From a virus, in the IMG/VR virus record IMGVR_UViG_3300004805_000008, positions 1-53,873 of that record: a stretch of 53,873 bases of DNA; one strand, given 5' to 3'. Under the pieces are notes generated by a model, which made no database searches, was not told the origin of the DNA, and worked only from the letters and a program-made list of their open reading frames with translations. This document shows positions 1 to 51,511 of this stretch, one piece after another. Position numbers and translations under genes: made by a program. How positions within the stretch are numbered: the first letter of the stretch is position 1; each line of letters starts with the position of its first letter.

Positions 1-3000
1 CCTTTGTCAGTAACGGCAAAGAAGAGCCACCGAGAAGAGTTATAATTTGAGCATCAAGGCCAGTAATAATGTCCTTAATCTCGGTAGGACCTTCTTTTAA
101 CTCGGCAATGAAACTTTTAATATCGGATACGAGAGTTGGGAAAGCTGAGAAGAATTCTGAGGGAATAAAGGACTCTACTGTTAGAGAGGGAACCACAGAT
201 TCTAAGATAACTAATACCTTAGTAAAGAAGAATCTCTGAACGCATAGTTTGGTTGCTACTGAGGTTGCTACTCTGGCACTTACAGAATACTCAGTATCTA
301 AATTATCTAGAATATGAAGAATTCCAGTTCTTGCGATGTTTGCATCGAAAGTAAAATCATATACTGGTACCTTGTCACTGTTAATAGTGACCCCGTTATA
401 AGTCTTTAGAGAAGCGGCCAGATTTATTAAAAGACCTACCGCTGGAGATACTTCAGAATTAAAGGAATTGATAGGACTTATTTCTGTATTTCCATATGCC
501 TGGCCCCTGGCTGCTTGGTTAGCAATATCTAAAGCAGCTGCCGAAATTGCGAAATCCTGAGTATGCTGAGGAACATCCAACAGAGCGGCGAGGCCAAGAG
601 ACTTATCATTAAGAAGCTTTTCTAATAGCTTTGTAGTGTAGTCAAATAAGATGTTAGGAGTAGCTGTTTGGATGCCCTTAAACGCATACTGAACTTCAGC
701 AGGGGCGGACTCTAATTCTTTCAAAATACGTAGAAGGAAAGAGGATATAGTATGGTTTGCAGTAGCTAAACGCTTAATCTTTGCCTTGGCTCTATTTCTT
801 TTTGCTGTAGCATGAGCAATCTTATCATGCTCCTTTAGAATAGATTGCTCTAAAGGAGAGTAAAGATTGAGAATATGAGCAAGTCTTTCGAGAGAAGCTC
901 TACGACTGTCTGCCTCCGGGGAAGCAGGTTCTTCTCCGACCTTAAGATCCTTAGGTTCTTCAGTAGAGACTTCATCGGTTGATGGCTCTCCCTCTACTGG
1001 GGCAGCTTTTGGAGATACGGTGGGAGCGGGTGCAGTCTTCAGGGGAAGTAATGAGAGGGAAGATATAAGTCTATTAGCATCTTCTACTGACTGAGTCTTT
1101 ACATACTTTACTACCTTGTCTATTAATTGCTCAGAAGTAGTAGAAGTAGGAATACTGAACTTTGAAAAAGAAGTCCCGAGTTCGATTACAGGATTCTCAA
1201 TCTGATCAATAAGGGCTTCTTTAGCAGATTGACTGGACAGTTCATGAGTAGCGGGTAGCTTCAGTGTCTGAAGAGTTTTTACAATGTTCTCTCTCTTCTT
1301 TTTAGAAGATACCAGAGCTAAAATAGCTTGTTTAACATCATTCTCAGTACTAGTAGAGGAAATAAGGACAGATCCAATACTGATAGGAGTAGTTATTTTA
1401 GGGATATTTACATAATACACATACTTGTTAAGTTTAGCCTCTAGTTGGTCAGCTACCTCATCCGCTGAGAATAAAGCTTCCATATCGATAGTTCCAACAA
1501 GAGAAGTAATAAAAGGAGTAAGTTCTCTAGATAGAGTAGCCTTCTTACGAGCAGAGCGGCCAGCACTCAACTTATCTTTTCTACGTCTAGAGAGCTCTCT
1601 GTTAGCCTCAAGTAATTGAGAGTCTAAAGAAGACAGGGCAAGAACTGCCTGAATCGCTTCATGTCTACCTTTATCAGTCTTGAATAAACCCTGAACATGG
1701 TTATTAAACTTTTTAAATACGAGAGCATACTCATTTAATACGTCTTCTAAATTCTGGCTAGTAGTAGTGAGATCTCTATCCTCATCACGGATACCTGATT
1801 TAGACTTAAATGAGTGATTAAAGTTTTCTATTTGCTTCTTAATGTATTTTATATCGTCAAAATCCTTTTTCGTAAGAGACTTTAACGTATTCAATAGCGC
1901 AGTCAATGCTTCATAAGAATACTCATAGTAAGGTCCACGAAGTAATACCTTCTTCTCAGCATCTGTCAATTTTTCTGGTTCCTGCTCCTGCTTTAACTTA
2001 ACTGTAGCGTAGGAAATATAATTAGTATACACAAGATCTGATACTGTCTTAACTAAAGCAGCAGAAGCGGTAGCATCATACGCATCACTTTGAAGCCATG
2101 TAATAAAGGCAGTCTGAACTTCTTGAACTTCCTTTGTTTCAAACGCCATATTCAAGATTTCTTCGGTAGTGGGAGCAGTTCCACTATGACTACTGGCCCT
2201 CTTTCCCAAATCAGCTTCTTCCTTACCCTTAGTATATGCTTTGGCGAAAGCCTGACGAGCATTTTCTCCTCTAAGATTTCGTAGAAGATCCGAACTTTGC
2301 TCGGCTTGCGTAACAGCGTCTCCAATCAGGGAGCGAGATACATCAGTAAGGAGGTCTAATGACGTATTCTTACCGATGGCATCTGAGGGCATGAACTTGT
2401 TATTGTCAATCTCAGCAAGATTTAGAATTTTTGGAGCCAGGGCTGCAAGAGAAGTGTACATGATAAACTTTGCTACTCTTTTTCTTGCAATGGGAGGAAG
2501 AATTGAGTCCTGTCTTACTGCTTCAACTAGTACAGAGCCTACAGTGGAAGCCGTCTCGGTAAACTCGGCATCCGCTAATAGCACCTTCTTGGTCTTTTTA
2601 AGAGCCTTTTTAAGTAAGGGATTACGAACAAAAGAGAAAGAAGAGAAATCAGTATTAGGAGAAAGCTCTAAGGGAGCCGTTAAGGAAACGCCAGTGTACT
2701 TCTTGCCTATAGCGGGGAAGAAGTTACCAGTTGCGGAGAAGATCTCATTTACAGACTCAGCAGGGAGGAAGGGGAATACTAGAGTAGAATAAGCTACTAT
2801 TGCTTTCTGCTCTGCACGAAGTTCCTTTTCTTTCTTGGACTTTTCCTCATCGGTGCTAGCCTTTGTGACATTGGTAAGCGAAGAGAACTTAATCCTTTCT
2901 ACCTTGCCATCCAGAATGGTTGCACAAAGACCGTAAAATTCTACCAATTCAGGTACTTGCTGAGACATGGCAGGAGTTACGCCATCGGTAACAAGGGTAT

Positions 3001-3598
3001 GTAGAACCTTATCTGCCACCACCTGTAACATTTCAACTAGATGCTCATTAGTGGAGGGAACCTTAAATCTGGTCCCGCTGATGGCCTTTAATACGATGCT
3101 ATCTCGTTCATCTGGAGTTCTTACGACAGCGTTTAAGGCGTGTAGAGGATTTTCTAAAGCTTTACCAGACCTATCTTGCTTCTTAGTAGAGGCAACTGGA
3201 CGATCATTGATCATTCTTGAGTTGAGATAGCCTATGAAAATACGTCTAATTTCTCCAATAGAAGCCTGGAGATGCTCTGGAACTTCCTTTTCCAAGAAAG
3301 CAGTAAGGTGCGGATCGACATATCGCTGTACTGAGCCTGCGGTAGTTGGTTGCCCGACAGTAACCTTAGCCGGTATCCACTCAGGAATAGTTATATTTCC
3401 CATTCTCTTTGAGTCATAAACCTTGGAAGCCAGTCTCTTAGCGACTACTTCAGGGCTATCTAGAGCCTCTTTAGCCTTTTCGCTAGGGAGTTTAGTATCT
3501 CTAGCTTCTTTCGGAAATAGTTCTCTCCCACGACGAACGGGAATCTTTTTCTTCTGAGCTTCAAAGAGACGGTTAAACAGGAAGGAGGAAGAACTCAT
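1..3598 (-). CDS. Giant uncharacterised protein, 3' end outside the window; possible virion (head-internal) protein
   Basis: Reading the minus strand from ATG 3598-3596 gives an uninterrupted frame of 1199 codons that leaves the window at base 1, so the C-terminus is missing. AAGGA lies about 12 nt upstream. The protein starts MSSSFLFNRLFEAQKKK and I recognise no enzyme domain. It looks mostly alpha-helical with many Lys/Glu stretches, and has one disordered Pro/Glu/Ser-rich linker at about residues 852-894. Residues 10-12 (LFE) followed by Ala match the T4-type prohead-protease cleavage rule, as in the capsid protein of this phage. It is the last gene seen in the minus-strand replication operon, but a copy of the putative late motif lies just upstream on the same strand (3633-3645). 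I infer a late, possibly packaged protein; this is unproven. The existence of the coding frame is near certain. Confidence 0.85.
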   Translation of the reverse strand, partial: MSSSSFLFNRLFEAQKKKIPVRRGRELFPKEARDTKLPSEKAKEALDSPEVVAKRLASKVYDSKRMGNITIPEWIPAKVTVGQPTTAGSVQRYVDPHLTAFLEKEVPEHLQASIGEIRRIFIGYLNSRMINDRPVASTKKQDRSGKALENPLHALNAVVRTPDERDSIVLKAISGTRFKVPSTNEHLVEMLQVVADKVLHTLVTDGVTPAMSQQVPELVEFYGLCATILDGKVERIKFSSLTNVTKASTDEEKSKKEKELRAEQKAIVAYSTLVFPFLPAESVNEIFSATGNFFPAIGKKYTGVSLTAPLELSPNTDFSSFSFVRNPLLKKALKKTKKVLLADAEFTETASTVGSVLVEAVRQDSILPPIARKRVAKFIMYTSLAALAPKILNLAEIDNNKFMPSDAIGKNTSLDLLTDVSRSLIGDAVTQAEQSSDLLRNLRGENARQAFAKAYTKGKEEADLGKRASSHSGTAPTTEEILNMAFETKEVQEVQTAFITWLQSDAYDATASAALVKTVSDLVYTNYISYATVKLKQEQEPEKLTDAEKKVLLRGPYYEYSYEALTALLNTLKSLTKKDFDDIKYIKKQIENFNHSFKSKSGIRDEDRDLTTTSQNLEDVLNEYALVFKKFNNHVQGLFKTDKGRHEAIQAVLALSSLDSQLLEANRELSRRRKDKLSAGRSARKKATLSRELTPFITSLVGTIDMEALFSADEVADQLEAKLNKYVYYVNIPKITTPISIGSVLISSTSTENDVKQAILALVSSKKKRENIVKTLQTLKLPATHELSSQSAKEALIDQIENPVIELGTSFSKFSIPTSTTSEQLIDKVVKYVKTQSVEDANRLISSLSLLPLKTAPAPTVSPKAAPVEGEPSTDEVSTEEPKDLKVGEEPASPEADSRRASLERLAHILNLYSPLEQSILKEHDKIAHATAKRNRAKAKIKRLATANHTISSFLLRILKELESAPAEVQYAFKGIQTATPNILFDYTTKLLEKLLNDKSLGLAALLDVPQHTQDFAISAAALDIANQAARGQAYGNTEISPINSFNSEVSPAVGLLINLAASLKTYNGVTINSDKVPVYDFTFDANIARTGILHILDNLDTEYSVSARVATSVATKLCVQRFFFTKVLVILESVVPSLTVESFIPSEFFSAFPTLVSDIKSFIAELKEGPTEIKDIITGLDAQIITLLGGSSLPLLTK

Positions 3599-3632: not shown

Positions 3633-3645
3633 CTATATTTAATTA
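3633..3645 (-). promoter_or_regulatory. Late-promoter-like motif on the minus strand, upstream of the giant gene
   Basis: The minus strand reads TAATTAAATATAG here, 35 nt before the giant gene's ATG. This is nearly identical to copies at 23797 and 46188 on the plus strand. The other minus-strand genes are too closely packed to carry it in a gap. It may let the giant gene be expressed late, independently of the replication operon. Confidence 0.45.
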
Positions 3646-3653
3646 CAACCTAC

Positions 3654-3995
3654 TTAGTGTGAAAGATCCTGGAATCCTCGGAACCATTTTCCAGCTTCGC
3701 CCGGACCGTAGAAGTTCATTACATTATCTTCATTATCGCCTGGCCTCCATATTATATCTTTTGACTGGCATTTATTGCAGCAAGCCCGTCTAGCTTCCTT
3801 GTAGAGAGGAATATCGTTCGAATCTCTAATTACCTCATAAGTATAAAGGGTTTTTTCTGTCAAAGTATCAAAGTCCTCTATTCTTTCACTGGGAAGTTCC
3901 GATACAAGTTCGTGATTCCGCTTTATTGCAAGAAGAATTTTGCCTTCATCGGAACACGAGTTACAAACATATGCCTTTTTAATCAATGAAATCAT
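3654..3995 (-). CDS. Small zinc-ribbon protein, function unknown (113 aa)
   Basis: The product has two CxxC knuckles, C11-x2-C14 and C73-x2-C76, spaced as in a zinc ribbon, so it probably binds zinc. The segment between them is charged and mixed alpha/beta, and the C-terminus (YGPGEAGKWFRGF) is aromatic and glycine-rich. I do not recognise the family. It lies 6 nt downstream of the 151-aa gene in the same minus-strand operon and 55 nt before the giant gene. The overlapping plus-strand frame at 3940-4338 is judged a shadow because the minus-strand genes are packed end to end here. Confidence 0.7.
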   Translation of the reverse strand: MISLIKKAYVCNSCSDEGKILLAIKRNHELVSELPSERIEDFDTLTEKTLYTYEVIRDSNDIPLYKEARRACCNKCQSKDIIWRPGDNEDNVMNFYGPGEAGKWFRGFQDLSH

Positions 3996-5668: not shown

Positions 5669-6022
5669 CTATACAGTATAAGTATAAGTGTATTCAACGT
5701 AAAAGAGGTCATCTGGATGTATATTGCAAGATGCCTCTGCTTGGGTAACGTCTAGTTCGCCACGCCTGTAGTGGGGATTAGAGTGTACTGTTACGGTAAA
5801 GGAAGAAGGACCAATAGTAAGCTCATAATAAAACTTAGCAAACTGATTGGTGGTACTGACAGTCTCTGAGATACGTTGGATTATTCGCTGGCCATTATAA
5901 GAGACAGATAACTTAGTAGCATCTTCTATTGTATTATTATAAGTTCTAGACATTTGGGTAGTACTGTCAATCCCAGCGTCATACTTGATACCTATGTATT
6001 TAGTAGAGTGAACGGTAGCCAT
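5669..6022 (-). CDS. Hypothetical beta-rich protein (117 aa)
   Basis: Alternating polar/hydrophobic strands dominate (FYYELTIGPSSFTVTVH, LFYVEYTYTYTV), suggesting a compact beta-sandwich, as in small structural or accessory phage proteins. No known family. The start codon shares one base with the stop of the SWIM-domain gene (TAATG), so translation is probably coupled to it. It lacks cysteine pairs and signal peptide features. Confidence 0.65.
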   Translation of the reverse strand: MATVHSTKYIGIKYDAGIDSTTQMSRTYNNTIEDATKLSVSYNGQRIIQRISETVSTTNQFAKFYYELTIGPSSFTVTVHSNPHYRRGELDVTQAEASCNIHPDDLFYVEYTYTYTV

Positions 6023-7182
6023 TATAGGACCTCACGGAGAGTGTTCATAACGGAAGCCTCAACTTCTAAGCTTTCGGTTAGCCAAGAAGAGTCCGGAGTG
6101 GTCGGTTTAATGCCTAAAATGCTCTTTAAACGAGTAACTTGAGGAGGCTGTATTTCTTTTGAATTGGCTTTTATCAGTGCTTTAAGCTCATCTTTGGTAA
6201 AATGAGCGTACACAGCAATGGGAGAATAGGGAGCAGGCTTCAATCCCGAGGCGGTTCTAGCGTAAACAGGAACCATTTCCTTGAACTGAGAGCCTTGAGG
6301 GAAGGGATTAAGAGCCGGATTGGTAAAGACGATGGCCCAGCCCTTTGGATACCACTTAACCATAAACTTATATTTGCGGTAGTGCTTTGCAGAGTCGGCG
6401 GGTGACTTATATGCTGAAATACTGTCACTTGATGCGTTACTAAGCTTCCGAAGGGTGGCGGAAATCATCTTTTCGTAGTCAGCCTTCTTGACATTAGTAG
6501 TAACTGGAGGACCGGGGGGCGGGCCTGGAGGAGGAGTATTCTGCCAAGGCATGATATCTGCGGCTTGAATTGCAGTACCCTTCTCCAGGGCAATGTAAGT
6601 TTGGTAATTATCCACAATAACGGCATAAATATGTTTGCATATAGTAGGATCTAATCGCTTTACACCAGACGCAGGGGGAATTGATCCCGGATCGGCAGTA
6701 TAACCGTAATCAACTAGCTTCTGCAGAAAGGTTGTGTCGAAGTCCATGCAACTACAGGATACATAATATCGCTGGGCAGACTGATCAGACATACTATCTC
6801 TACTGGTAACCAACACAACATGACCTGCACCGGAGGCAGGAGCAGCAGAACCTCCAACTCCCTCTTCAGGGACCTGTGATCTCGTTATAGCAGGTGGAAC
6901 CGGGTAGCGTTCCTTTAACTTATCATCCTTGAAACTACCATGATTAACGTTAAATTTATCACATTCAACCTTTACATTACCAAAGTTAACTGTAACCTTA
7001 CCCAAAGAAGTAACAGTGTAGTTAGTCTTGAAATGCTGTTGCTTTCTGTAAATTCTACGCTTACCGCCCTTTAATCCGGGCATACCAACTGAACTGTAGC
7101 TAAACTGAGGGTCTACAAAGGCATCAAGCCTGTCTAGCAACCAGGTAAAGTTCTCAACTAACATAAATTTGTTTGCGGCCAT
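6022..7182 (-). CDS. SWIM-type zinc-finger protein (386 aa)
   Basis: I chose ATG 7182-7180 rather than the upstream TTG at 7206, which would overlap the primase gene. The key feature is C143-x-C145-M-D-F followed about 37 residues later by C182-K-H184, the CxC...CxH arrangement of SWIM zinc fingers, which bind DNA or protein. A proline-rich hinge (PPPGPPPGPP) separates this from a C-terminal region of about 165 residues (KFMVKWYPKGWAIVFTNP). SWIM proteins in other systems act with recombinases or transposases. Here the neighbours are primase and exonuclease, so a replication or recombination role is plausible but inferred. Confidence 0.75.
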   Translation of the reverse strand: MAANKFMLVENFTWLLDRLDAFVDPQFSYSSVGMPGLKGGKRRIYRKQQHFKTNYTVTSLGKVTVNFGNVKVECDKFNVNHGSFKDDKLKERYPVPPAITRSQVPEEGVGGSAAPASGAGHVVLVTSRDSMSDQSAQRYYVSCSCMDFDTTFLQKLVDYGYTADPGSIPPASGVKRLDPTICKHIYAVIVDNYQTYIALEKGTAIQAADIMPWQNTPPPGPPPGPPVTTNVKKADYEKMISATLRKLSNASSDSISAYKSPADSAKHYRKYKFMVKWYPKGWAIVFTNPALNPFPQGSQFKEMVPVYARTASGLKPAPYSPIAVYAHFTKDELKALIKANSKEIQPPQVTRLKSILGIKPTTPDSSWLTESLEVEASVMNTLREVL

Positions 7183-7190
7183 AAAATTAA

Positions 7191-8093
7191 TTAAGCCGTC
7201 AAGCAAGCAAACCTATTTTTAAGTTTCGAAGAAAGAGTAGGAGCAACGTACCGGATGCTATTGTTCTTAATCCAACTGACCAATTGAACTGAGGATAGAG
7301 TCTCTGACAAAGTGCCCAGGTCATTATCCTGATATGCCGACTCATTAATACGATATATAGCCTTATTCGGGAACCATGAATGTAACGAAGCGCACAGAGT
7401 ATCCATGTTGTGCCCAGTCCCAGCATCAAGACATACATATATAGACGACCGCTTCTTAAATAGGTTAATCAGATGGCTCTCATTGTCTTGTCCAAGAGTC
7501 TTCCCAAGGAGAGCGACAGCATTAGGAAGCTTTGCGGCATCGAAAATACCCTCTGCAATAATACCAAGGTCACTAAACAGCATGCCTTCAGGAACCTTCG
7601 ACTCAAATAAGATGTTTGATCTAGATACATCGGCGTTCTTATATCTTGAAGTAGTCTCGGGATCAATGCTACGAGCAGTGAAATAAATCATCTTGTCTGC
7701 AGAATCAAAGATAGGAAGAATTACCCTATCCCTATATTTAGGAGAATGAGACACTAGAGGACGATAAGAGTGAATCATATCTTCAGTCCAACCTCGACTC
7801 TCAAGATAGGCATACTGAGGATCTGTATAGATGACCTCTCGCACCGGGTTCAAATCACTTAAAATGTCGTGAGAAGACAAGTCGAGAGGTTTAAAACTCT
7901 TCAATCTACTACTCTCAGCAAGTGATAGATGATCCTCCAGTTTAGCTAGAAGATCAGGAAATTTATAAAGCTTCTTAATACTGCCCTTAAAGCCACAGCG
8001 GAAACAATTAAAAAGTCCCATCTCCACGTTGATGTAGAGTTTAGAGGATTTTCCAGGGGGGCACATAGGGCAATGAAGAATTATTTCCGACAT
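7191..8093 (-). CDS. DNA primase (gp61-like, zinc finger plus TOPRIM)
   Basis: Primase makes RNA primers for lagging-strand synthesis at the phage replication fork. A CHC2-type zinc site is visible at the N-terminus: H7-C8-x2-C11 and C30-F-R-C33. A TOPRIM-like core follows: E181-G (IIAEGIFDAAK), with a second acidic strand at VCLDAG (D223) that would bind the catalytic metals. At 300 aa it is close to the 342-aa T4 gp61. The start overlaps the end of the HD-domain gene by 13 nt. No helicase domain is fused, so the DnaB-like helicase must lie elsewhere. Confidence 0.85.
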   Translation of the reverse strand: MSEIILHCPMCPPGKSSKLYINVEMGLFNCFRCGFKGSIKKLYKFPDLLAKLEDHLSLAESSRLKSFKPLDLSSHDILSDLNPVREVIYTDPQYAYLESRGWTEDMIHSYRPLVSHSPKYRDRVILPIFDSADKMIYFTARSIDPETTSRYKNADVSRSNILFESKVPEGMLFSDLGIIAEGIFDAAKLPNAVALLGKTLGQDNESHLINLFKKRSSIYVCLDAGTGHNMDTLCASLHSWFPNKAIYRINESAYQDNDLGTLSETLSSVQLVSWIKNNSIRYVAPTLSSKLKNRFACLTA

Positions 8094-13517: not shown

Positions 13518-14471
13518 ATGGCTGAAATCACTGATGATTCGTATAGTCCTATTGAAGAAGTTTCAGTAGGAAGAGAAAAATCTGGCTACAGAGTTATTAT
13601 GTATGATAAGCTTGAAGTAGAGCGACTTGAGAGAAATACTATACGTCTAATGATTGAAGATGATGCGAAGAGTAAGAAACCAGTTCCTCATTCGGATGCC
13701 TTTCTAATCAAAGCAATGGCCTTATTTCCAGACAGTTTCTTAGAGACTGAGGTTAAAAAGCGAAGAGGAAAGAAGTCTACATCGTATTTCATAGAGGATG
13801 TAGGGAAATATCTATGGTCTAAGTGGAAAGTATCCCAGGATTCAACGGACCGTAATAACTTTGTCTCCTATTGCTACACTTTAATCGATGGTGTTATCTT
13901 CAAGTACCAGAGACACAAGCACGGATTAGCGTACGAGGAGATTTTCCAAAGTGCTATACTGAAAGTAATACATGCAATGGATAAGTTCGATCCAGACAGA
14001 GTAGTAGGTAAGGATGATAAAGGTAAGGATGTATACGCCAGAGTGTTTACCTACTTTACCATGGTACTGAGCTTCGGTATCTGTACTATTACTATGGCTC
14101 ATGGCGCTGAGAAGATTACCAATGTCTCTTATGATGCTATCGCCCGTACTATAGATTCACATACAGATGGCTTTACTGATGCTGCTGTAGTATATCAGGA
14201 CTTTTTACTCACTTTAAACTCGATTTTACATGATGACACCGAGCAGTTTGACGATATAACTGATATGGACCGACTAGTTCTAGAAAAACTAGTCTTTTTA
14301 TTAGGTAATCCTTCCTCCCATTCAGGTCTTGTTCACAACTTAGAGTACACTTTAAAGACAGAAACTGGACTTAAGCAAAAAGAAATTGCTTCGTGTTTAG
14401 TTAAGCTTCGTTCTCACTTCGGCCCGTTGCATTTTGCTACCCAAAAAGGCACTCTTTCTGAAGAAGAGTGA
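13518..14471 (+). CDS. RNA polymerase sigma factor for late transcription (gp55-like)
   Basis: Redirects host RNA polymerase to late promoters. Residues 115-195 match sigma region 2: NNFVSYCYTLIDGVIFKYQR, then YEEIFQSAILKVIHAMDKFDPDR, then ARVFTYFTMVLSFGICTITMA, covering the core-binding and -10-reading helices. No clear region 4 is seen, as in T4 gp55, where a separate coactivator does that job. At 317 aa it is longer than gp55 (185) with extra N- and C-terminal segments. It stands after a terminator and before the packaging genes. The recurrent AATTAA motif downstream is its likely target. Confidence 0.82.
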   Translation: MAEITDDSYSPIEEVSVGREKSGYRVIMYDKLEVERLERNTIRLMIEDDAKSKKPVPHSDAFLIKAMALFPDSFLETEVKKRRGKKSTSYFIEDVGKYLWSKWKVSQDSTDRNNFVSYCYTLIDGVIFKYQRHKHGLAYEEIFQSAILKVIHAMDKFDPDRVVGKDDKGKDVYARVFTYFTMVLSFGICTITMAHGAEKITNVSYDAIARTIDSHTDGFTDAAVVYQDFLLTLNSILHDDTEQFDDITDMDRLVLEKLVFLLGNPSSHSGLVHNLEYTLKTETGLKQKEIASCLVKLRSHFGPLHFATQKGTLSEEE

Positions 14472-19141: not shown

Positions 19142-20515
19142 ATGAAGCTAAATAATCTACTCAGTGTTCTTCGTGGCGGCAACTTAGCACTCGGTCAGAA
19201 GTTACACAACCTCCTAACAGAAGACTGTGTAATTCTTGAATATACAGATGATGCAGTATTATTTCACAAGAATAATCATCTAGTATTAGCCAAGTTTAAG
19301 CATAATCTCTCCGAATCCAGACTATCCGCCGAGGATGTTCTAGATAACGAAGTTTTATACGTTTCCGGGACGGATGCCGAAAAGGATCTCAAAAATTCTA
19401 TGCTATCTATTGTAGATAGCCTAGTAGAAGAGAACTATGTATCCGCTGAGGAGGAACTGGCTCATTTCTGTGAGCAGTACTTCCAATATTCCCTGTTAAA
19501 GAGACGATATCCTTCGCTGTTTACAGAGAACCTCGCTAAGAAGTCAAAGGGATTGGCCGTTAGACGTGCCGCTGCAAAGCAAATTCCCTCGTTCCGTTCT
19601 GACATTTTTAGTTTAGCTACTATTAATGAGTCAGTTATGGACGCTTCCGAATATGTTTCCGTTGTAGAGACTACTGGTTTAGTGTTGGCCTTAGGCAAGA
19701 AGAAGATTCTTCCTATCGTATTAGATGCTCTCCTAGGCAACCAGGAATTAGCCGAGCAGATTACTACTCGTCTATATGACACTGTTACTTCACTAACTGA
19801 AGCAAATAAAGATCTAATGGGTCTAGTATCCTCTGGCTATGATGTAGAGGGCGGCAAGTTTGCTGATGAAGACGAAGAGGATCTAGAGAACGAAGACCTA
19901 GAAGTTGGTGAAGACGAGGATAGTGACCTTGACTTAGATGACCTAGATAGTGAAAATGAAGAGGGTTCAGAAGTTGGTGAGTTCTCAGAATTCGATCCTT
20001 CAAAGTTAAGTGACGAGGAAATTAAGACTCTTCATGTTGATATTTTGAAGTCTTTCCTTGGTGCAATGAGTGAGTTCGTTGGTCGTGAAGCCAGCAACCC
20101 TGAGAATGACGCTGTTGATCCCGATCTTGATGAGAAGCTTAAAGAAGATCTAGACAAGCTTGATGAACTTGATGTTACTGATGAAGAGCTCTCACGTATT
20201 GAAGCTGATTGGCAGCCTGTTCTTTCCTTCTTCCTTGATTCTGACCTCTATAAGTCCGATCAGGATCTTGGTGATGATGAAGTCTCACTTGAGAATGTAG
20301 TTGACGGCGGTGAAGACGTTGATTTAGAGGGTTCCGGCGAAGATGAGTCAATGGAAACTCCTGAAGAGGAAGCTACGGAAACTCCTGAAGAGGAAGCTAT
20401 GGAAGACTCAGAAGGACTGGAAGAGCCCCTACCTGAAGAAGAGCCCCTACCCGCTGAGGAAGAGGAATTACCTCCCGCTCCCCGTCCAGCCCGTAAGCCT
20501 GCTCTCAGAGTATAA
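19142..20515 (+). CDS. Acidic prohead core/internal scaffold protein (gp67/gp68 position, 457 aa)
   Basis: It lies between portal and prohead protease, where T4 has the small core proteins gp67 and gp68. Residues 1-225 look folded and helical; from about 235 on the sequence is extremely acidic (DEDEEDLENEDLEVGEDEDSD, residues 240-260) and ends in a repeated Glu/Pro tail. L25-T26-E27|D28 fits the prohead-protease cleavage rule. An acidic scaffold that is digested to free space for DNA would fit. It is much larger than gp67 plus gp68, and homology is not shown, only position and character. Confidence 0.65.
   Translation: MKLNNLLSVLRGGNLALGQKLHNLLTEDCVILEYTDDAVLFHKNNHLVLAKFKHNLSESRLSAEDVLDNEVLYVSGTDAEKDLKNSMLSIVDSLVEENYVSAEEELAHFCEQYFQYSLLKRRYPSLFTENLAKKSKGLAVRRAAAKQIPSFRSDIFSLATINESVMDASEYVSVVETTGLVLALGKKKILPIVLDALLGNQELAEQITTRLYDTVTSLTEANKDLMGLVSSGYDVEGGKFADEDEEDLENEDLEVGEDEDSDLDLDDLDSENEEGSEVGEFSEFDPSKLSDEEIKTLHVDILKSFLGAMSEFVGREASNPENDAVDPDLDEKLKEDLDKLDELDVTDEELSRIEADWQPVLSFFLDSDLYKSDQDLGDDEVSLENVVDGGEDVDLEGSGEDESMETPEEEATETPEEEAMEDSEGLEEPLPEEEPLPAEEEELPPAPRPARKPALRV
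20353..20398 (+). repeat. Tandem 24-nt repeat in the acidic tail of the core protein gene
   Basis: GGAAACTCCTGAAGAGGAAG occurs at 20353 and 20377, giving ETPEEEA twice. A second short repeat (AGAGCCCCTACC) follows at about 20422 and 20440 and gives EEPLP units. Confidence 0.8.
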
Positions 20516-20523
20516 GGAATAAC

Positions 20524-21165
20524 ATGGCCTCCTTTCTATTAAATGAGTTAACCTCTACTACTAGTAATTTTGAAGTACTAGAAGAGAAGATTTCTCCTAC
20601 ATCCTCTTGGAAAAGCCTTAAAATTAGAGGCGTGTTTCAGAGAGCTGATGCAAAGAATCAGAATGGTAGAATCTATCCTTATAAGGTACTAGACAAGGCC
20701 ATTCAAGAAGTAAACGAAAGTCTCAGTGCTAGAAATATGTTTGGTGAGTTGGATCATCCTAGCGATCAAAGTCCAACTGTATCTCTCAAGAACGTCAGTC
20801 ATGTTGTTACTACCCTGAGATTCCAAGGTAGCGATCTGATTGGTGAAGCTGTAGTATTCGATGATCCCGGTCCCTCTGGAACGCCAGGCGGTAGATTACT
20901 GGGTGCTTTAATTCGCAATAACTGTACGGTAGGTATCTCAAGCAGAGGTTACGGTGCTGTTAATAGTGACTACGATGGTTCTTCGATAGTGGAAGAGTAT
21001 AAGTTAGTGACTTTTGATTGTGTTCATGATCCCAGCACACACAAGGCGTTTATTGAGCCTGTCAATGAAGGAACTGACTTCAAGCGTAAGTTAAAACAGG
21101 CGCTTGATGAAAAAGAATTCATTGAACATCTTAGAAATGAATTTTCGTCAATATTTAAAAAGTAA
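20524..21165 (+). CDS. Prohead core serine protease (gp21-like, peptidase family S80)
   Basis: Matures the prohead by cleaving capsid and core proteins after [L/I]xE. Family signatures: NQNGRIYP (45-52), ELDHP with catalytic His H78, and VGISSRGYG with the catalytic Ser in S139-S140. Length 213 aa equals T4 gp21 (212). Self-cleavage candidates are LNE at 6-8 and LEE at 19-21. AGGA lies 5 nt before the ATG and the gene follows the core protein by 8 nt, so the two are probably co-translated. Confidence 0.93.
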   Translation: MASFLLNELTSTTSNFEVLEEKISPTSSWKSLKIRGVFQRADAKNQNGRIYPYKVLDKAIQEVNESLSARNMFGELDHPSDQSPTVSLKNVSHVVTTLRFQGSDLIGEAVVFDDPGPSGTPGGRLLGALIRNNCTVGISSRGYGAVNSDYDGSSIVEEYKLVTFDCVHDPSTHKAFIEPVNEGTDFKRKLKQALDEKEFIEHLRNEFSSIFKK

Positions 21166-21179
21166 TTAACTTTTGTAGG
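21163..21179 (+). promoter_or_regulatory. Late-promoter-like motif before scaffold gene
   Basis: TAATTAACTTTTGTAGG; its AGG with following TG is the Shine-Dalgarno for ATG 21188. Confidence 0.5.
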
Positions 21180-21187
21180 TGTCCAAT

Positions 21188-22030
21188 ATGAATATACAAG
21201 AAATCAAGGAATTACTAGCCAACCCTGCCGTACGACAGGTCGTTGAGGAACAAATCAACGAACAAGTCAAAGCCAAGCAGCTTGAGTTAGACAAGAAGAT
21301 GAACGGCTTGGCACAGGATGTCAAGAAGCGTGAAAAGGAATCCTTCTTACTAAAGAAGACTATTCTTGCTAAGGCTAATCTTTTCGAATCGAAGCTTAAG
21401 GAATACTATGAATCAAAATTCCAAGAAGCCAAGAAGAAGCTTACTAAGGAAACTTATGACTTTATCAATGAGTCTGTTGCTTCCGTAGTAAAGAAGATTG
21501 AGCTAGATGCCAAGGATAACACAAAGGCTGCAAAACTTGAGGAAGCTTTCTCACAGGCCATGCGTAGTCTTGTTCCTTTTGTAAATGTCAACGAACTGAC
21601 TGAGTCTAATTCGTCTAAGATCGATGAACTGACTAAGAGAGTAAATGATCTTATCAAGGAAAATAAGCAACTAACTGGCAAAGCCTTCAATGGTGAGCTT
21701 CATGAGTTAGTAGTATCCGAATGTGCGGGTTATCCGGTCGACAAGATGGCCGTTATCTATAGAACCGTCACTAAGATGGCTCCCAAGACTTTAGTCGAAG
21801 GCAAGCAAGCAATTGATGCCGTTAAGGTCGCACTAAAGCAGAAGCAAGATGAAGCTGCTCAGATTAATGAATCTGCTGCTAGACAAACCGAAGTAAAGGA
21901 AACTGCTCCTGCCCGTGCTCGTCTTAAGGTAATGGCAGAAGACATTAAGAAAAAGGAAGCTAAAGCCGTAGTTGAGGAAAAGGCTTCCATGGTAAGTGCT
22001 GGCAGTTACGACATTTACTTAGGCGAATAA
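21188..22030 (+). CDS. Prohead scaffold protein (gp22-like)
   Basis: Forms the inner core on which the capsid assembles and is then digested. The 280-aa product is almost wholly helical, Lys/Glu-rich and coiled-coil-like; gp22 of T4 is 269 aa and has the same character. It lies between protease and capsid, as in T4. I chose ATG 21188 because AGGTG (21177-21181) is 6 nt upstream; the in-frame GTG at 21179 overlaps that ribosome-binding site. INE at 23-25 is a possible protease site, and the C-terminus ends in IYLGE. Confidence 0.88.
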   Translation: MNIQEIKELLANPAVRQVVEEQINEQVKAKQLELDKKMNGLAQDVKKREKESFLLKKTILAKANLFESKLKEYYESKFQEAKKKLTKETYDFINESVASVVKKIELDAKDNTKAAKLEEAFSQAMRSLVPFVNVNELTESNSSKIDELTKRVNDLIKENKQLTGKAFNGELHELVVSECAGYPVDKMAVIYRTVTKMAPKTLVEGKQAIDAVKVALKQKQDEAAQINESAARQTEVKETAPARARLKVMAEDIKKKEAKAVVEEKASMVSAGSYDIYLGE

Positions 22031-22091: not shown

Positions 22092-23741
22092 ATGTTTAAC
22101 AATCCCGGAAATTTAGAACCCCTACATGAGGAAACAGTTCGTAAGATTCTTGCTCGTGACGAAGAGGCCGCTAAGAAGGCTGGTAAGGCTTCCTTCTGGA
22201 AGACTTTCAACGAGAATCTTGAGGGCGTAATTGGCGATAAGGACTTCCGTAACACCGTTCTACTTCACGCTGTTAAGTCCCTTCAGTACGCTTCACGTCA
22301 GAATCCTTTGATGGAAGCCACCACTACCTCAGCTACTTCAGCTGGTGGTTACAACAAGGCCATGCTTCCCACCATCATCACCCGTGTATTCCCCCAGATC
22401 GTTGCTACTAAGTTCATTGCAACTCGTCAGCTAGACGTTCCTACCCAGCTCATCCAGACCTTCCGCTTAAGCCGTAACACCACTAAGGGTGCTACTACTT
22501 CCGGCGATGAGTTCTTCGATCCCAGCCTGTACAAGAATCGTCCTGACACTGGCACCAAGCAGTACAAGGAAATGGCCCGTGGTATGGATGCTTTCTACTC
22601 CAGCCAGAAGGTAACTGAAGCAGTTGCCACCGCCGTTGCTGCTACTACCGCCGTTTCAAAGGCTCTGACCTTTGCTACTAACGCCTCCACTGGTGACGCT
22701 CTCGTTGCTAACAGCATCGTTGTTTACGCTGTAAGCAATATTGATCCCCGTAACCGTGTTGCCGTTGCTCACCAGACCGCTGCTGGCACTCTTTCAGCTA
22801 TCACTGGCTTCACTGGTGTTGGTACCGTCACTGGCGCTACTCCTACCTATACTCCTGCCGCTGGTGATACTACTGATACGACTGGTGCTATCCCTGCTTA
22901 CCTTATCGGTCTCGGTGGCACTGGCATTATTGGTTTCGCTACTTGGCACTATGAGTTTGAGTACCAGTACAACCAGGAACGCAATAAGAATCTCTCCGAG
23001 ATTTCATTCAAGATGAGCACCATCAATGCAGTAGCTAAGAGCCGCAAGAACTTCGCCCAGATCTCTGCCGAAGCCATTCAGGATCTCGAAGCTTACTCAG
23101 AAGGCAAGCTTGATGCACTGAAGGAGCTAGTCTCAGGTATGACTGAGTCCATGGCCCTTGAAATTGACCTTGAAATCATGCTCGCCATGATGAGCACCGC
23201 TGGCAAGACTTCCGTCTATGATGCCAAGTACGGTGACAACAAGTTCCGTGGTACCACCATGCAGAAGAACCAAGAGCTCGTTCACCGTATGAATTACCTT
23301 TCAAACGACATGAGCATCGACTTCCTCCGTGGTGAGGGCATGTTCGCCATCACTCATCCTCACGTGTTCACTCTCCTCCAGAACACCAATGAGTTCAAGA
23401 TGACTTCGCTCAACGACCACAAGGCCCAGGGCAACTTCGACATCCAGGCCGAGAAGTTTGGTACCGTAAACAACTTCACCGTTGCTAAGGCTCCTCAGTT
23501 CCCCTTCTCTGATCGTATTCTGATGGGCTTCACCTCCAAGGATCTAGCTAAGGCTCCCTATGCTTACTTCCCCTTCGTGACTTACCTCACCCCTCCCTCA
23601 ATCGACGTGATGAGCGGCGACCTCTTCAGTTCAGTGGTCGGTCTACAACAGCGTTACGATCACCAGCCTCTACTTGATGGTGATAAGGGTCTTGGCGTTC
23701 TTACCGTCAACAACCTCTACGACACTTCAGTATACGGTTGA
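22092..23741 (+). CDS. Major capsid protein (gp23-like)
   Basis: Forms the icosahedral shell. HK97-fold/gp23 features: an N-terminal helical propeptide with a T4-type protease site L73-M74-E75|A76 (T4 cuts after residue 65), then an N-arm (GGYNKAMLPTIITRVFPQIVATKFIATR) and the gp23-type C-terminal half (AYFPFVTYLTPPSIDVMSGDLFSSVVGLQQRYDHQPL). Residues about 175-300 are Ala/Thr/Gly-rich and may form an insertion domain. Length 549 against 521 in T4. Codon use is strongly biased (CGT, AAG, ATC, CTC), marking very high expression. A strong terminator follows. Confidence 0.94.
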   Translation: MFNNPGNLEPLHEETVRKILARDEEAAKKAGKASFWKTFNENLEGVIGDKDFRNTVLLHAVKSLQYASRQNPLMEATTTSATSAGGYNKAMLPTIITRVFPQIVATKFIATRQLDVPTQLIQTFRLSRNTTKGATTSGDEFFDPSLYKNRPDTGTKQYKEMARGMDAFYSSQKVTEAVATAVAATTAVSKALTFATNASTGDALVANSIVVYAVSNIDPRNRVAVAHQTAAGTLSAITGFTGVGTVTGATPTYTPAAGDTTDTTGAIPAYLIGLGGTGIIGFATWHYEFEYQYNQERNKNLSEISFKMSTINAVAKSRKNFAQISAEAIQDLEAYSEGKLDALKELVSGMTESMALEIDLEIMLAMMSTAGKTSVYDAKYGDNKFRGTTMQKNQELVHRMNYLSNDMSIDFLRGEGMFAITHPHVFTLLQNTNEFKMTSLNDHKAQGNFDIQAEKFGTVNNFTVAKAPQFPFSDRILMGFTSKDLAKAPYAYFPFVTYLTPPSIDVMSGDLFSSVVGLQQRYDHQPLLDGDKGLGVLTVNNLYDTSVYG

Positions 23742-23818: not shown

Positions 23819-24310
23819 ATGACTAAACCCACTATATTTACTCAGATTAACGAGGCCTATAGTTCTATGACTAATCCTTCCGATGTATTGAAGGAAGGCC
23901 AGGACTTCCTTGGCGCTGTACCGGCTCCTATTGTTGGTTCCGATCCTAGAACTAGACCTTTATCTCAGGAAGATGAAAATATTCCAGATGAGCAAGAGGA
24001 TCCTACAGTACATGACGATATACTCTCCTCTTTTGATTCCATTTTCGAAAAGCAATTTTCACAGGCTCAAAAGAATGTTCTTCGTAATCGATTAGCTGGA
24101 AAAAGTAGAGCAATGATAGCAAAGCAATTCAATACTACTACACATGCTATTTATGTAATTGAAAAATCTATTATAGAACTTCTACAATCAGCTCTATCAA
24201 AAGAATTTCCACACCTAAATCGAGTCACTAATCCTAGTTTACTGGGGTTGAACGATACCTCCAGAAAAGCTAGACCAGCAAGAGTCTCCACCATAGATTT
24301 ACCTGAATAA
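23819..24310 (+). CDS. Helix-turn-helix protein with putative head-processing site (163 aa)
   Basis: Residues about 78-125 (FSQAQKNVLRNRLAGKSRAMIAKQFN...) read as a tetrahelical HTH of the sigma region 4/LuxR type: an initial helix, then GKSRAMIAKQFNTTTHAIYVIEKSI as the HTH. It therefore probably binds DNA. The N-terminus carries I10-N11-E12|A13, which fits the prohead-protease rule, followed by an acidic linker. It lies right after the capsid gene behind its own late-motif copy. It may be packaged and delivered with the DNA, or be a late regulator; neither is proven. Confidence 0.7.
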   Translation: MTKPTIFTQINEAYSSMTNPSDVLKEGQDFLGAVPAPIVGSDPRTRPLSQEDENIPDEQEDPTVHDDILSSFDSIFEKQFSQAQKNVLRNRLAGKSRAMIAKQFNTTTHAIYVIEKSIIELLQSALSKEFPHLNRVTNPSLLGLNDTSRKARPARVSTIDLPE

Positions 24311-24364: not shown

Positions 24365-24919
24365 ATGATTTATAGGATTGGTAAAATATACGGACTACTC
24401 AAGGTTTTAGCACTCGACACTACGAAAAAGAGACGCTCTTTTCATTGTCAGTGTTCATGTGGTAATATGCTGTCAGTTAGAAGCACGGATTTCATGAGAA
24501 CTACCTCTTGCGGTTGTTTAGTCCGAGAACTTAGACTAAAGAAAAAAGAGAATAACCCCAGTACTTGCTTTGGCTCTAAGAGAGAGCGACTGTTCTACTA
24601 CAAAGCGACTCGTAATCTATTTGAAGAGATCCGCCATAGAGATAATCACCATTGCGTATTCTGTAGTGCTGAGACTAACCTTCACGTTCATCATATATTA
24701 AGAAAAGGTCAGTATCCTCAGTATCGTTTATGTCCAGAGAATCTAGTTACCTTATGTGAGAAATGCCATCTCTGGTCTGCTCACGGTGGAAATACTAGTA
24801 CTTGTGATATAGATATTGCAAATGAATTATTACACATAGTATTCGACAACTCTCGAACTTATACTGTAAACCCATTAGTTATTAAAGCAACACTTGAGTC
24901 CTTTAAGGGAGTTTTATGA
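24365..24919 (+). CDS. HNH homing endonuclease, free-standing
   Basis: The N-terminal 55 residues form a zinc module typical of phage HNH proteins (IGKIYGLLKV..., HCQCSCGN, TTSCGCL). The HNH nuclease follows: HHCVFCSAETNLHVHHILRKG with the H-H pair, then NLVTLCEKCHLWSAH, with two CxxC half-sites binding the structural zinc. Such genes spread by cutting related phage DNA. It overlaps the dNMP kinase gene by ATGA. Arg codons are mostly AGA and CGT mixed. Its unusual hairpin/late promoter control recalls T4 homing endonucleases. Confidence 0.88.
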   Translation: MIYRIGKIYGLLKVLALDTTKKRRSFHCQCSCGNMLSVRSTDFMRTTSCGCLVRELRLKKKENNPSTCFGSKRERLFYYKATRNLFEEIRHRDNHHCVFCSAETNLHVHHILRKGQYPQYRLCPENLVTLCEKCHLWSAHGGNTSTCDIDIANELLHIVFDNSRTYTVNPLVIKATLESFKGVL

Positions 24920-34032: not shown

Positions 34033-36372
34033 ATGGCAGAACCAACCACTCCACCTACTACCCCGCCAGCTCCTAAACCACTTGCTGGAAGCGACGATGC
34101 TTTTACTAAGATGTTTATTCGTCTCGGTATGGCTACTTCAGCTACTTTTGAAGAGGACGTAAAAAGACCTCTGACTAAATTAGAAGCATCTATTCAAAAG
34201 TTCCATAATAGCACTCAGTACAAGGATAGCTTTTTCTCTAAGCTTTCTTCTGATGGTAGACTACTCGATAAACTTATTCCTGATGTAGCTAGATTTACTG
34301 TTTCTCTTATTACACTAGGCCAGGCTTCTAGAGATAGTGCAGATCAAAAACAACTATACGAAAGTATGGGAATGTTTGGAAAGCTTTTAGTTAACATGAC
34401 TCCAAGTATTGCAGATGCTGAAAAGGGAACTTGGGGCTTGGGATCCGCTATTCAGAAAGTATTTACTACGGGCATTCTCTTAGCTATTACTTTAGTAGTA
34501 ACTGCGTTAGCTTTTGCTGGACAGGCATTAAAAGATGTTGCATTGGCCGGTATTAAGTTCCAGGATGAACTGAATAAACTAAATACTATTATGGGTGGAG
34601 TGTCAAGAGATCGATTAAGTGCATTTAATATTCGACTTAATGAAACCTTTAAGGGATTAACCTCTCTCGGAGTCGGTGTTGGAACTGTACTTGAGGCGAT
34701 GGCAGGATTTATAAAAGGCGGATTAAACCCAGCTATAGCCTTCCAGGGAGATCTAATAAGAACCTCCACTATGCTAGCTAAGATCACTGGTGAGTCTTCA
34801 GAAGCCATGGCTAATTTCTTTGCTACTATTATGGTAGGATCCAAAATATCCTCAGAAAATTTGAAAAGCTTAGGAGACTCCTTTACTCGTATGAACAGAG
34901 TAGCAGAAGCATCTGGTGTTTTGGCCTCAGTATCTTTTGGTGATGTGCAAGAAGCTATTACCTCTGTAGGAACTGCCTTATTGATTGCTTCAAATAAAGG
35001 ATCTGTATTCACAGATAAGATGACTCATGATTTAGTCTCTCTTACTACTCTAGCAAAAACTTTAGGTGTCTCTGTAGCTGAACTAAATAGTAAATTTGAA
35101 GAGTCTAGTAATCTATTAACTAGTCCCGATTCTGGATTTAGAGCCCTTTTAGCCATTTCTGGGGGCGCTACTATATCTGAAATGTTAAGTAATAGTTTTA
35201 ATAAGACAGATGCTATGTTACGAATTTCCGGCACCTTGGAAAGATTAAATATTGCTCTACACGGCAATCTGAATTTAATGGGACAAGTAGCTCAAGCTCA
35301 GTTCGGTATCAGTAAACAAGATGCTATAAAGTGGGCAACTATGACACAACAGCAAAAGGATGCTATTAGACAAGCTAAAGCTGATGCTGAAAAGATGAAA
35401 AATGATGGTATAACTGATGCCTATAACAGCGTAACTGGTACATTAACTGAGACTTGGGAAAAGTTTAAAAACGTTATGTTCATGTCATTCCAGAGAGCCG
35501 TAGCTGGAAATCAGGGACTACAGGGATTCTTAGGTAAGATTGCTGATAAACTCAACGAATGGATTGCTGGTTTTGGAGATCCTAACTCTCCCGCACAAAA
35601 ATTCATAGATCGGTTATCCGAAGGAATGACTTGGATTAGTGAGATGCTGGAAAAATTATTTGATCGCTTAGTACCCATCTTAGAAAGTTTGGGAAATTGG
35701 TTTAATTCTATTCTAACTACAGCTATGGACGTTGGTGTAGGGACTGCTCTTGGGGATATACTAGGCGATATTTTAGTTAAATCATTAAGTTTTGCTTGGA
35801 AGGCTACTATTGGAAACCCCAAATTCTGGATTCCTCTAATAGGTGCTGTTATAGGCGGTATTATAGGGTTCATTTCCCCGCTTCCTGGTGGTGCTGCTCT
35901 CGGTGCAATGCTGGGCGGCGGTCTTTTCGCAGGTATGATGGGTGCTGTTCCCGAGGAAGAGAAAAAACAGGAAACCGCAAATGAGAGAAGGCAAAGTATA
36001 GCTGGATTATCTGGAAGTATTTCTGAACTGCTTAAGAGTACTGACAAAGATCAAAAGAAATATAGCAATCTAAAAGATACTGATATGGTAATGGGTAGGG
36101 ATGGAAATCTCACTCTGGCCGGACTTGAGAAAATTAAACTGGAAGAGAAAGAAGAAGCATTACTTAAAGTTCAGAAAAATCTAGCGGATAATACTAAGGA
36201 TCTAACTACCGCAATGATGGAAGCTACTGCAGCAATCAAGCAATGGGGAGGAAAAGTTGACGAGAATGCTGTTAAATCTCAAGTGGCGGGAATAAAAGCC
36301 AAAGAAGCAGAAAGAACCAACAGTCTTCAAGAAAACATAGAAGACAATCCCACGGTAATGATGGGTTCATAA
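34033..36372 (+). CDS. Tail tape-measure protein candidate (gp29-like position)
   Basis: 779 aa, long, helical and Ala/Lys-rich, with a Pro-rich start, as in tape measures that set tail length and help DNA cross the envelope. Two hydrophobic stretches could insert in membrane: about 146-166 (TTGILLAITLVVTALAFAG) and about 597-640 (WIPLIGAVIGGIIGFISPL then GGAALGAMLGGGLFAGMMG). The C-terminus is charged coiled-coil. It directly follows the hub gene, as gp29 sits with gp27/gp28 in T4. T4 gp29 is 590 aa, so a somewhat longer tail might be expected. No lysozyme domain is seen. Confidence 0.7.
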   Translation: MAEPTTPPTTPPAPKPLAGSDDAFTKMFIRLGMATSATFEEDVKRPLTKLEASIQKFHNSTQYKDSFFSKLSSDGRLLDKLIPDVARFTVSLITLGQASRDSADQKQLYESMGMFGKLLVNMTPSIADAEKGTWGLGSAIQKVFTTGILLAITLVVTALAFAGQALKDVALAGIKFQDELNKLNTIMGGVSRDRLSAFNIRLNETFKGLTSLGVGVGTVLEAMAGFIKGGLNPAIAFQGDLIRTSTMLAKITGESSEAMANFFATIMVGSKISSENLKSLGDSFTRMNRVAEASGVLASVSFGDVQEAITSVGTALLIASNKGSVFTDKMTHDLVSLTTLAKTLGVSVAELNSKFEESSNLLTSPDSGFRALLAISGGATISEMLSNSFNKTDAMLRISGTLERLNIALHGNLNLMGQVAQAQFGISKQDAIKWATMTQQQKDAIRQAKADAEKMKNDGITDAYNSVTGTLTETWEKFKNVMFMSFQRAVAGNQGLQGFLGKIADKLNEWIAGFGDPNSPAQKFIDRLSEGMTWISEMLEKLFDRLVPILESLGNWFNSILTTAMDVGVGTALGDILGDILVKSLSFAWKATIGNPKFWIPLIGAVIGGIIGFISPLPGGAALGAMLGGGLFAGMMGAVPEEEKKQETANERRQSIAGLSGSISELLKSTDKDQKKYSNLKDTDMVMGRDGNLTLAGLEKIKLEEKEEALLKVQKNLADNTKDLTTAMMEATAAIKQWGGKVDENAVKSQVAGIKAKEAERTNSLQENIEDNPTVMMGS

Positions 36373-46209: not shown

Positions 46210-46788
46210 ATGTCACGTACATCATTAGAGTTGTTTGAGTTTATCAAAGAAGAATTTTTAGACGAGGCTAGACTTCGTCCAATGGCTACTGCTGCTGAAC
46301 GTGAGTGGAGCGCCTTTGACTCGGCTTATGAGTTTCTTCACAATGCCTCTGTATTTTCTTTTAGTATAATGCCCCAACAGACTCAGCATGTTCCTATTGG
46401 TGATGCTTCAGGCACTATCCAGAAATACGACTCTGAATTTTTACATTATATCGATCACTTCCAAGAGATGGCTGATAAGGATCCAGAACAAGATATTAAG
46501 TATCTTATGTTCAAGGATATTTTAGTTAGGAACCATAGAAACTTCCTTACGGCAGTTGGTGGTAAGACTAAGAGGGTATTCGATCCTATTTATTCTAATA
46601 ACCCCGTTCAAAATAGAAACATAGCTAGAAATCAGGCTTCTGGTACTGCTACTTTTGTGAATAGTAATCCTCCCGCCCAACTACCTAAAGTAGTTCCTGG
46701 CGTGACTCCAGTTTCTAGACGTTCTGATGTGACTATTAACCCCTCAATTCTAAACAGCACTGTACTCCCTTTAAACGATAGGAAATAA
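46210..46788 (+). CDS. Putative head-processed protein (192 aa), unknown
   Basis: The N-terminal helix MSRTSLELFEFIKEEFLDEA contains L17-D18-E19|A20, fitting the prohead-protease rule. The middle is a compact helical domain (EFLHYIDHFQEMADKDPEQD), and the last 60 residues are Asn/Pro/Thr-rich and disordered. No known family. It opens a four-gene run, of which at least three have such sites near the N-terminus, suggesting a set of internal head proteins. Confidence 0.6.
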   Translation: MSRTSLELFEFIKEEFLDEARLRPMATAAEREWSAFDSAYEFLHNASVFSFSIMPQQTQHVPIGDASGTIQKYDSEFLHYIDHFQEMADKDPEQDIKYLMFKDILVRNHRNFLTAVGGKTKRVFDPIYSNNPVQNRNIARNQASGTATFVNSNPPAQLPKVVPGVTPVSRRSDVTINPSILNSTVLPLNDRK

Positions 46789-50346: not shown

Positions 50347-50739
50347 ATGGCCCAGACTCTTCTAAAACTATTACCCGATGGTGCCGGAAACGAACAAGTT
50401 TCTGTGTCTATCCGTTCATTAAAAGATTCTGTTGCTTCTGATGCATCCACTGTTAATACTACCGTTATTTTTGATGCTGACTATAAGAAAATTAATCTTT
50501 TAGCCGATACTAATATTACATTCTCGGGTGGTACTAAGGATGGACAACAGTTAGTTTTAGCTCTAGTGCAAGCAGATATAGTTCCTCATACTGTAACTTT
50601 TACGAATGTTAGACTTGGAACAGATATTTTCAGTGTTCCATTGTTAACTACTGCTCTAGGAAAAACAGATAGATTGATGTTTTTCTACGATTTAACATCA
50701 AACACATATGATCTCATAGGATATGCACGTGGCTTTTAA
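50347..50739 (+). CDS. Small tail/fibre-type structural protein (130 aa)
   Basis: Beta-rich, with INLLADTNITFSGGTKDGQ, LVLALVQA and a C-terminal LMFFYDLTSNTYDLIGYARGF that matches the ending of many small phage appendage proteins. AGGAT lies 7 nt before the ATG and the gene follows the tail terminator by 8 nt. The GIY-YIG gene overlaps its last 17 nt, so the endonuclease gene has inserted at or near its 3' end without obviously truncating it. Confidence 0.6.
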   Translation: MAQTLLKLLPDGAGNEQVSVSIRSLKDSVASDASTVNTTVIFDADYKKINLLADTNITFSGGTKDGQQLVLALVQADIVPHTVTFTNVRLGTDIFSVPLLTTALGKTDRLMFFYDLTSNTYDLIGYARGF

Positions 50740-51511
50740 AAGTGGAATTTATATTATAACCAATACCTTGAACAATAAGGTATATATTGGTCAATCTACT
50801 AATATAAATAAGCGCCTATCCAAACATAAGCGAGAGTTATTTAGTAATACACATTTTAATAGTCATTTACAACTATCTTATAATTTACATGCGGAACAGT
50901 TTACATTTACTCCCTTACTATATTGTTCAATAAGTGATTTAGACTTGTATGAAATTAGACTTATTCGGTCGTATAGGGCAAGTGAAAGACAGTATGGATA
51001 TAATAATGAGTGTGGTGGTTCTTTAAATAAAATAGTATCTGAAGAAACTAAAAGAAAGCTATCCTTGGCTCAAACTGGTAAGACTCCTCCCAATAAAGGA
51101 GTCCCATGTACAGCTGAAACAAAGGCAAGGATTTCGGCTAGTAAAACCGGATGTATTCTGCGACCACGAACCGAAGAAGAGAAACAAAGAATTTCTGAGA
51201 GTAACAAAGGTCAGAAACGATCTGATGAAACCAAACTAAATATGTCTCTCTCTCATCAAGGTCCTCGCCCGTATCAAATAGGACGCAAGCATAGTGACGA
51301 AGCAAAACAGAAGGTGTCTGAAGCTAACAAGGGTAGGTCAGCCTGGAATAGGGGTATTGCTACCTCAGAAGAAGATAAAGAGAAACTAAGAAAACCAAAA
51401 AATAATACTGAAAAAATGAGAAAGCCCAAATCCGAAGAGCACAGGAAAAACATAAGTTTGGCTCAAATTGGACGAGTTCCGTGGAATAAAGGAATTAAAA
51501 AAGACAAGTAA
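50723..51511 (+). CDS. GIY-YIG homing endonuclease with NUMOD3 repeats (262 aa)
   Basis: The catalytic module is at residues 8-90: SGIYIITNTLNNKVYIGQST holds both GIY and YIG, followed by the Arg-containing helix (NINKRLSKHKREL) and a Glu in LYEIRLIRSY. The C-terminal half is four to five NUMOD3-like DNA-binding repeats with S-x-E-[TE]-K-x-K-[IL]-S...G...NKG (for example SEETKRKLSLAQTGKTPPNKG). Free-standing mobile gene. Its Arg and Lys codons (AGA, AAA) are more A-rich than its neighbours', consistent with separate origin. AGG lies only 2 nt before the ATG. Confidence 0.9.
   Translation: MHVAFKSGIYIITNTLNNKVYIGQSTNINKRLSKHKRELFSNTHFNSHLQLSYNLHAEQFTFTPLLYCSISDLDLYEIRLIRSYRASERQYGYNNECGGSLNKIVSEETKRKLSLAQTGKTPPNKGVPCTAETKARISASKTGCILRPRTEEEKQRISESNKGQKRSDETKLNMSLSHQGPRPYQIGRKHSDEAKQKVSEANKGRSAWNRGIATSEEDKEKLRKPKNNTEKMRKPKSEEHRKNISLAQIGRVPWNKGIKKDK

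Follow-up and report, generated by a model that had tools for sequence, protein, structure and literature searches.

What is encoded by a giant gene that closes the primase operon of a phage yet starts a late-type unit, which continues downstream in relatives? The question is raised by one end of IMG/VR record IMGVR_UViG_3300004805_000008, the 53,873 bases of which were analyzed as a whole (the window). The first-pass annotation had described the gene as more than 1199 codons with no recognized domain and with hallmarks of a head protein. Apart from its function, which is a matter of guesswork, the product is probably an internal head protein of a T4-like clade, targeted to the capsid and matured by a protease. 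The elements of the locus are listed here.

2..3598, minus strand: giant open reading frame (ORF); ATG at 3598; first 1199 codons, no stop, cut by the window edge
3560..3598, minus strand: putative capsid-targeting leader MSSSSFLFNRLFE; codons 1–13; predicted cleavage E13↓A14 (↓, predicted cut)
3633..3645, minus strand: late-type promoter motif TAATTAAATATAG; 47 nt upstream of the giant-gene ATG
3654..3995, minus strand: CxxC protein, 113 residues; directly upstream of the giant ORF; synteny anchor

The frame is open over all 1199 codons. Relatives were found through neighboring genes: the primase led to contig G001, and alignments of the primase and UvsX led to further members. A one-protein scan of viral contigs with the window giant protein gave no direct relative, and 50,697 phage records contained no match for the window protein or for its 2040- or 2320-residue relatives. 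Orthologs of the CxxC protein occupy the same place in relatives with contigs reaching the locus, and the giant gene lies directly after this protein (111–114 residues) in seven distinct phages. Obtaining the full gene had been proposed in the first-pass annotation, and a complete homolog is present in G001, with 2040 residues and 49% identity to the window protein. The other products have 1747 (G006), 1688 (G008), 2320 (G010), more than 572 (G005), and more than 950 (G021) residues. The origin of G021 should be noted. This contig of the phage clade (L101 / G021:C90) is found in a GTDB metagenome-assembled genome labeled Bacillota, with a coverage of 1.3 in its title. The placement may be a binning artefact, through contamination, or a hint of the host.

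The late-type motif is located exactly where it had been annotated. In the window, TAATTAANT occurs 15 times on the plus strand, and 13 of these copies lie 15–75 nt upstream of a plus-strand start. Random placement gives an expectation of 0.65 such copies (maximum 6 in 20,000 trials), and the enrichment is thus beyond chance. The minus strand has only two copies, one at the giant gene and the other at 7185–7193, beside the start of ORF 6022–7206. A similar motif directly precedes the homologs of this ORF in L012, L014, and L016, so the onset of late transcription may lie further upstream within the "replication operon". TAATTAA-type motifs are also found upstream of the giant gene in G001, G005, G006, G008, G010, and G021, that is, in all seven phages including that of the window.

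The N-terminus of the window protein reads MSSSSFLFNRLFE↓AQKK, with L11-F12-E13 before A14. The LFE↓A leader claimed earlier is present; with Met1 counted, the mature protein is predicted to start at Ala14, not Ala13. The leaders in the seven phages are MSSSSFLFNRLFE↓AQ, MAQFLFNHLFE↓AK, MFIKSQLFKSLYE↓AR, MMVDRLFKNLFQE↓AK, MSNRLKLFSNMSGMQKRVSDIQE↓AK, MLNRLKMLSGMSGMQKSFPLEE↓AK, and, with an internal ATG as the start, MIDRFKAFNIMSGLNKSLTE↓AS. Glu at P1 and Ala at P1' are invariant in all of them, and P3 is Leu, Ile, or, in G008 only, Phe. The leaders are 10–23 residues long (10–13 in group A and 20–23 in group B, groups that are separated by the protein bodies as described below). T4 leaders are 10–20 residues long (PMC5694885), and the lengths here fit this range apart from one of 23; with Glu at P1, the leaders are of the T4 type. 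In internal 28-residue segments of the giant proteins, [LIF]xEA is found at a background of 4%, and a single leader is therefore weak evidence. In a count over seven records that included the giant genes, leaders were commoner where a late-type motif was present (17/130 genes) than where it was absent (12/290 genes; Fisher p 0.0013).

The window also encodes a protease and a capsid substrate that bear on the leader.

20524..21165, plus strand: prohead (head maturation) protease; PHROG 207, E 9e-45; predicted to cleave the leader
22092..23741, plus strand: major capsid protein; PHROG 138, E 6e-26
22308–22319, plus strand: predicted capsid cleavage site LME↓A, residues 73–76

Six capsid proteins of the clade have LMEATT, LTEATT, or LSEATT (L-x-E↓A-T-T/S) at the gp23-type position, which corresponds to the cleavage site of T4 gp23. 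Because LxE↓A is common to all six, it is likely to be the specificity of the clade's prohead protease, as judged from conservation, and it matches the giant-gene leader. A gp21-like protease is thus accompanied by a capsid substrate with the same predicted site.

The bodies behave differently from the leaders. At 49%, the giant proteins of the window and G001 are less identical than the products of any other window gene compared (58–89%). Over aligned parts, identity of the window protein falls to about 22% with G006 and about 20% with G008. A phmmer search with the window protein misses the giants of G006 and G008, though UvsX is still 58–61% identical. The second group (group B) consists of G010, G005, and G021; G010 and G005 match with E 3e-15, and G021 was placed by inspection. 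Between groups A and B, hhalign detected no significant similarity, and the groups are not alignable. The family therefore combines a constant leader with a hypervariable body, and the weight of the leader evidence is that the leader is kept while the body is not. In the window–G001 giant pair, synonymous sites are saturated, and the ratio of nonsynonymous to synonymous rates (dN/dS) is consequently unusable.

Searches of Pfam, PHROGs, and PDB sequences found no domain in the window protein, the complete G001 relative, or other family members, as the annotation had stated for the visible part. Weak matches in these three collections to eukaryotic and viral coiled or helical proteins are unrelated and were rejected as chance. 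The earlier observation that no polymerase motif is visible holds for the complete 2040-residue relative, which matches no polymerase in Pfam, PHROGs, or PDB; the 1688-, 1747-, and 2320-residue relatives have none in Pfam. Nor did Pfam give a match to an Alt-type ADP-ribosyltransferase domain. For the complete relative, no DarB-type Pfam or PHROG family reached threshold, in a search of family profiles that did not extend to the DarB sequence itself. Of the two computational checks suggested earlier, the profile search thus returned no family, and structure prediction gave nothing usable (pLDDT, the predicted local distance difference test score, of 31–37). AlphaFold models of the two halves have mean pLDDT values of 36.9 and 31.5, too poor to read, and are mostly helical.

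From these features we infer late transcription, targeting, cleavage, and packaging of the giant protein. The gene would be transcribed late from its own promoter, and the 13-residue leader would serve for capsid targeting by docking the protein on the prohead core. The prohead protease would cut after Glu13, and the mature protein, well over 1186 residues here and about 2030 in the complete relative, would lie inside the DNA-filled head. Its exit from the head together with the DNA, followed by action early in infection inside the host cell, is plausible. That it counters host defense as T4 IPI or P1 DarB do is a guess by analogy, one that the very fast sequence turnover would fit. What carries the reading is the occurrence of the late motif and the Glu↓Ala leader in seven of seven phages, across two body groups without detectable similarity. 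The head-protein part of the first-pass annotation is accordingly supported, since leader and motif are kept in seven phages and the clade capsids carry the same cleavage site; the likeness that it drew to the N4 polymerase comes down to size class.

Several points weigh against this reading. The giant gene adjoins replication genes, the leader motif is short, and P3 in G008 is Phe rather than Leu or Ile. The seven giant genes share descent, and their leaders are not seven independent tests. No functional domain was found, the structure models are too poor for use, and packaging is a prediction from the genes.

Known packaged proteins offer analogies. The T4 internal proteins (IPI–IPIII) and Alt likewise have a short N-terminal leader ending in Glu, a prohead protease, gp23-type capsid cleavage, and a late-type motif. 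The motif here, TAATTAA, is unlike that of T4, TATAAATA. Pfam also gave no Alt-type domain for the giant protein, and it is far larger: the giant proteins have 1688–2320 residues, as against 68.2 kDa for mature Alt and the small size of the T4 internal proteins. In T-even internal proteins, the leader is constant and the body variable (PMC3012670), a pattern repeated here in a giant protein. P1 DarB is a head protein of about 250 kDa, the first 30 residues of which are enough to direct a reporter to the capsid; DarB, believed to enter the cell, inhibits the EcoK and EcoB endonucleases (PMC9024508). By analogy, DarB is the best functional counterpart, as a giant leader-targeted head protein (predicted here), though no sequence-family link was found. 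phiKZ and SPN3US are large myoviruses that pack protease-processed head proteins, their ejection proteins, with DNA (PMC5694885). Unlike in the window phage, most of their propeptides are longer, some over 100 residues, and a multi-subunit RNA polymerase is included; the window phage differs in having replication and sheath genes of T4 type. At about 3500 residues, the N4 virion RNA polymerase is likewise giant, and it is packaged and ejected (PMC12633501), but the window phage is a contractile-tailed T4-like phage and not a schitovirus, and its giant protein lacks a polymerase match. On these comparisons, DarB and the T4 Alt and internal proteins are better analogues than the N4 enzyme.

Would the protein have to leave the head? 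It could instead be packaged and cleaved but not ejected, as a giant prohead-core or inner-body protein that organizes the scaffold or DNA in a large head. The leader, late motif, and conserved locus fit this account equally well, the low-confidence models are mostly helical, and giant phages keep an internal protein bolus (PMC5694885). We regard it as possible, albeit doubtful: the clade's structural core proteins are far better conserved, and candidate genes for such roles are already present.

19142..20515, plus strand: prohead-core candidate lying between the portal and protease genes; strongly acidic (net charge −81)
21179..22030, plus strand: scaffold-like protein; between protease and capsid genes; seven candidate protease sites; no family match

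The acidic protein sits where T4 gp67/gp68 do and is likened to them by position only.

An early or middle protein associated with replication or host takeover, with the Glu↓Ala and the AT-rich motif coincidental, would agree with the strand and direction shared with the primase operon and with the chance background of a single leader. It is unlikely, given that leader and motif persist in seven of seven phages while the body diverges past alignment. We consider a tail tape measure displaced from the tail cluster very unlikely, despite the great length and the helices in low-confidence models; the giant gene lies apart from that cluster and carries the Glu↓Ala leader, and a better candidate stands among the tail genes.

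34033–36372, plus strand: tape-measure candidate, 779 residues; hydrophobic segments; between tail-tube, sheath, and baseplate genes; no family match; conserved in four relatives' records
13518..14471, plus strand: candidate late sigma factor resembling gp55; Pfam Sigma70_r2 match weak (E 0.0013) and short of the curated threshold; conserved in the clade

An N4-type virion RNA polymerase is scarcely credible, since only size class and a packaging signal speak for it, the database searches described above gave no polymerase match, and the sigma-factor gene suggests that host RNA polymerase transcribes the late genes.

A capsid-targeted, matured head protein may also be one occupant of a wider arrangement. 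In the relatives, the giant gene is followed on its 3' side by a 700–815-residue protein, a short protein, a 464-residue protein, and a late protein of about 200 residues. The 700–815-residue gene begins two bases past the giant's stop in G006, G008, and G010, and the 464-residue protein of G001 belongs to the PD-(D/E)XK family. The late protein of about 200 residues bears a leader in all four records read (LLME↓G, FLDE↓A, FLQE↓A, and LILE↓A). As a speculation to which we give a rather low chance, late promoter and leader could form a fixed packaging slot holding ejected proteins of ~1700–2300 residues with unrelated or unrecognizably diverged bodies, possibly paired with the 700–815-residue protein, as an injected anti-defense or takeover machine. 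The family, and such a size among T4-like phages, appear to be new, while the kind is known. Phage proteins that enter with the DNA determine the course of an infection in its first minutes, and they often neutralize host defenses. If ejection is true, an uncultivated T4-like clade devotes 5–7 kb to one injected protein without known relatives, far above Alt and the T4 internal proteins. The late motif with a Glu↓Ala leader would also be a simple sequence rule for finding packaged proteins in uncultivated phages.

Judged from its genes, the phage is a T4-related myovirus distant from cultured ones. The replication genes are of T4 type, a sheath gene is present, and the late region runs in the order terminase, portal, acidic protein, protease, scaffold-like protein, major capsid protein, tail tube, sheath, and baseplate. 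The terminase is 31% identical to that of Flavobacterium phage immuto, and the capsid protein is 28% identical to that of a 595-kb uncultured phage. The terminase large-subunit ORF of G001 (L002:62-3004, minus strand) has 980 residues versus 655 in the window, and the extra length may reflect an in-frame insertion, for example an intein. Homing-endonuclease-like genes of the HNH and GIY-YIG types lie at 24365–24919 and 50723–51511 (plus strand), and in the relatives ORFs of GIY-YIG or HNH-like type are much more numerous and sit between core genes. Two further late proteins of the window are candidates for bearing a leader.

23819..24310, plus strand: second candidate leader-bearing late protein, MTKPTIFTQINE↓AY; no homolog in relatives
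46210..46788, plus strand: third candidate leader-bearing late protein, MSRTSLELFEFIKEEFLDE↓AR; no homolog in relatives

A late-motif protein of 972 residues with the leader MTNIREDLKKLLIE↓AN is found only in G010 (L043:7867-10785, minus strand, equal to G010:87867-90785). It has two strongly hydrophobic segments near the C-terminus and is a candidate packaged protein.
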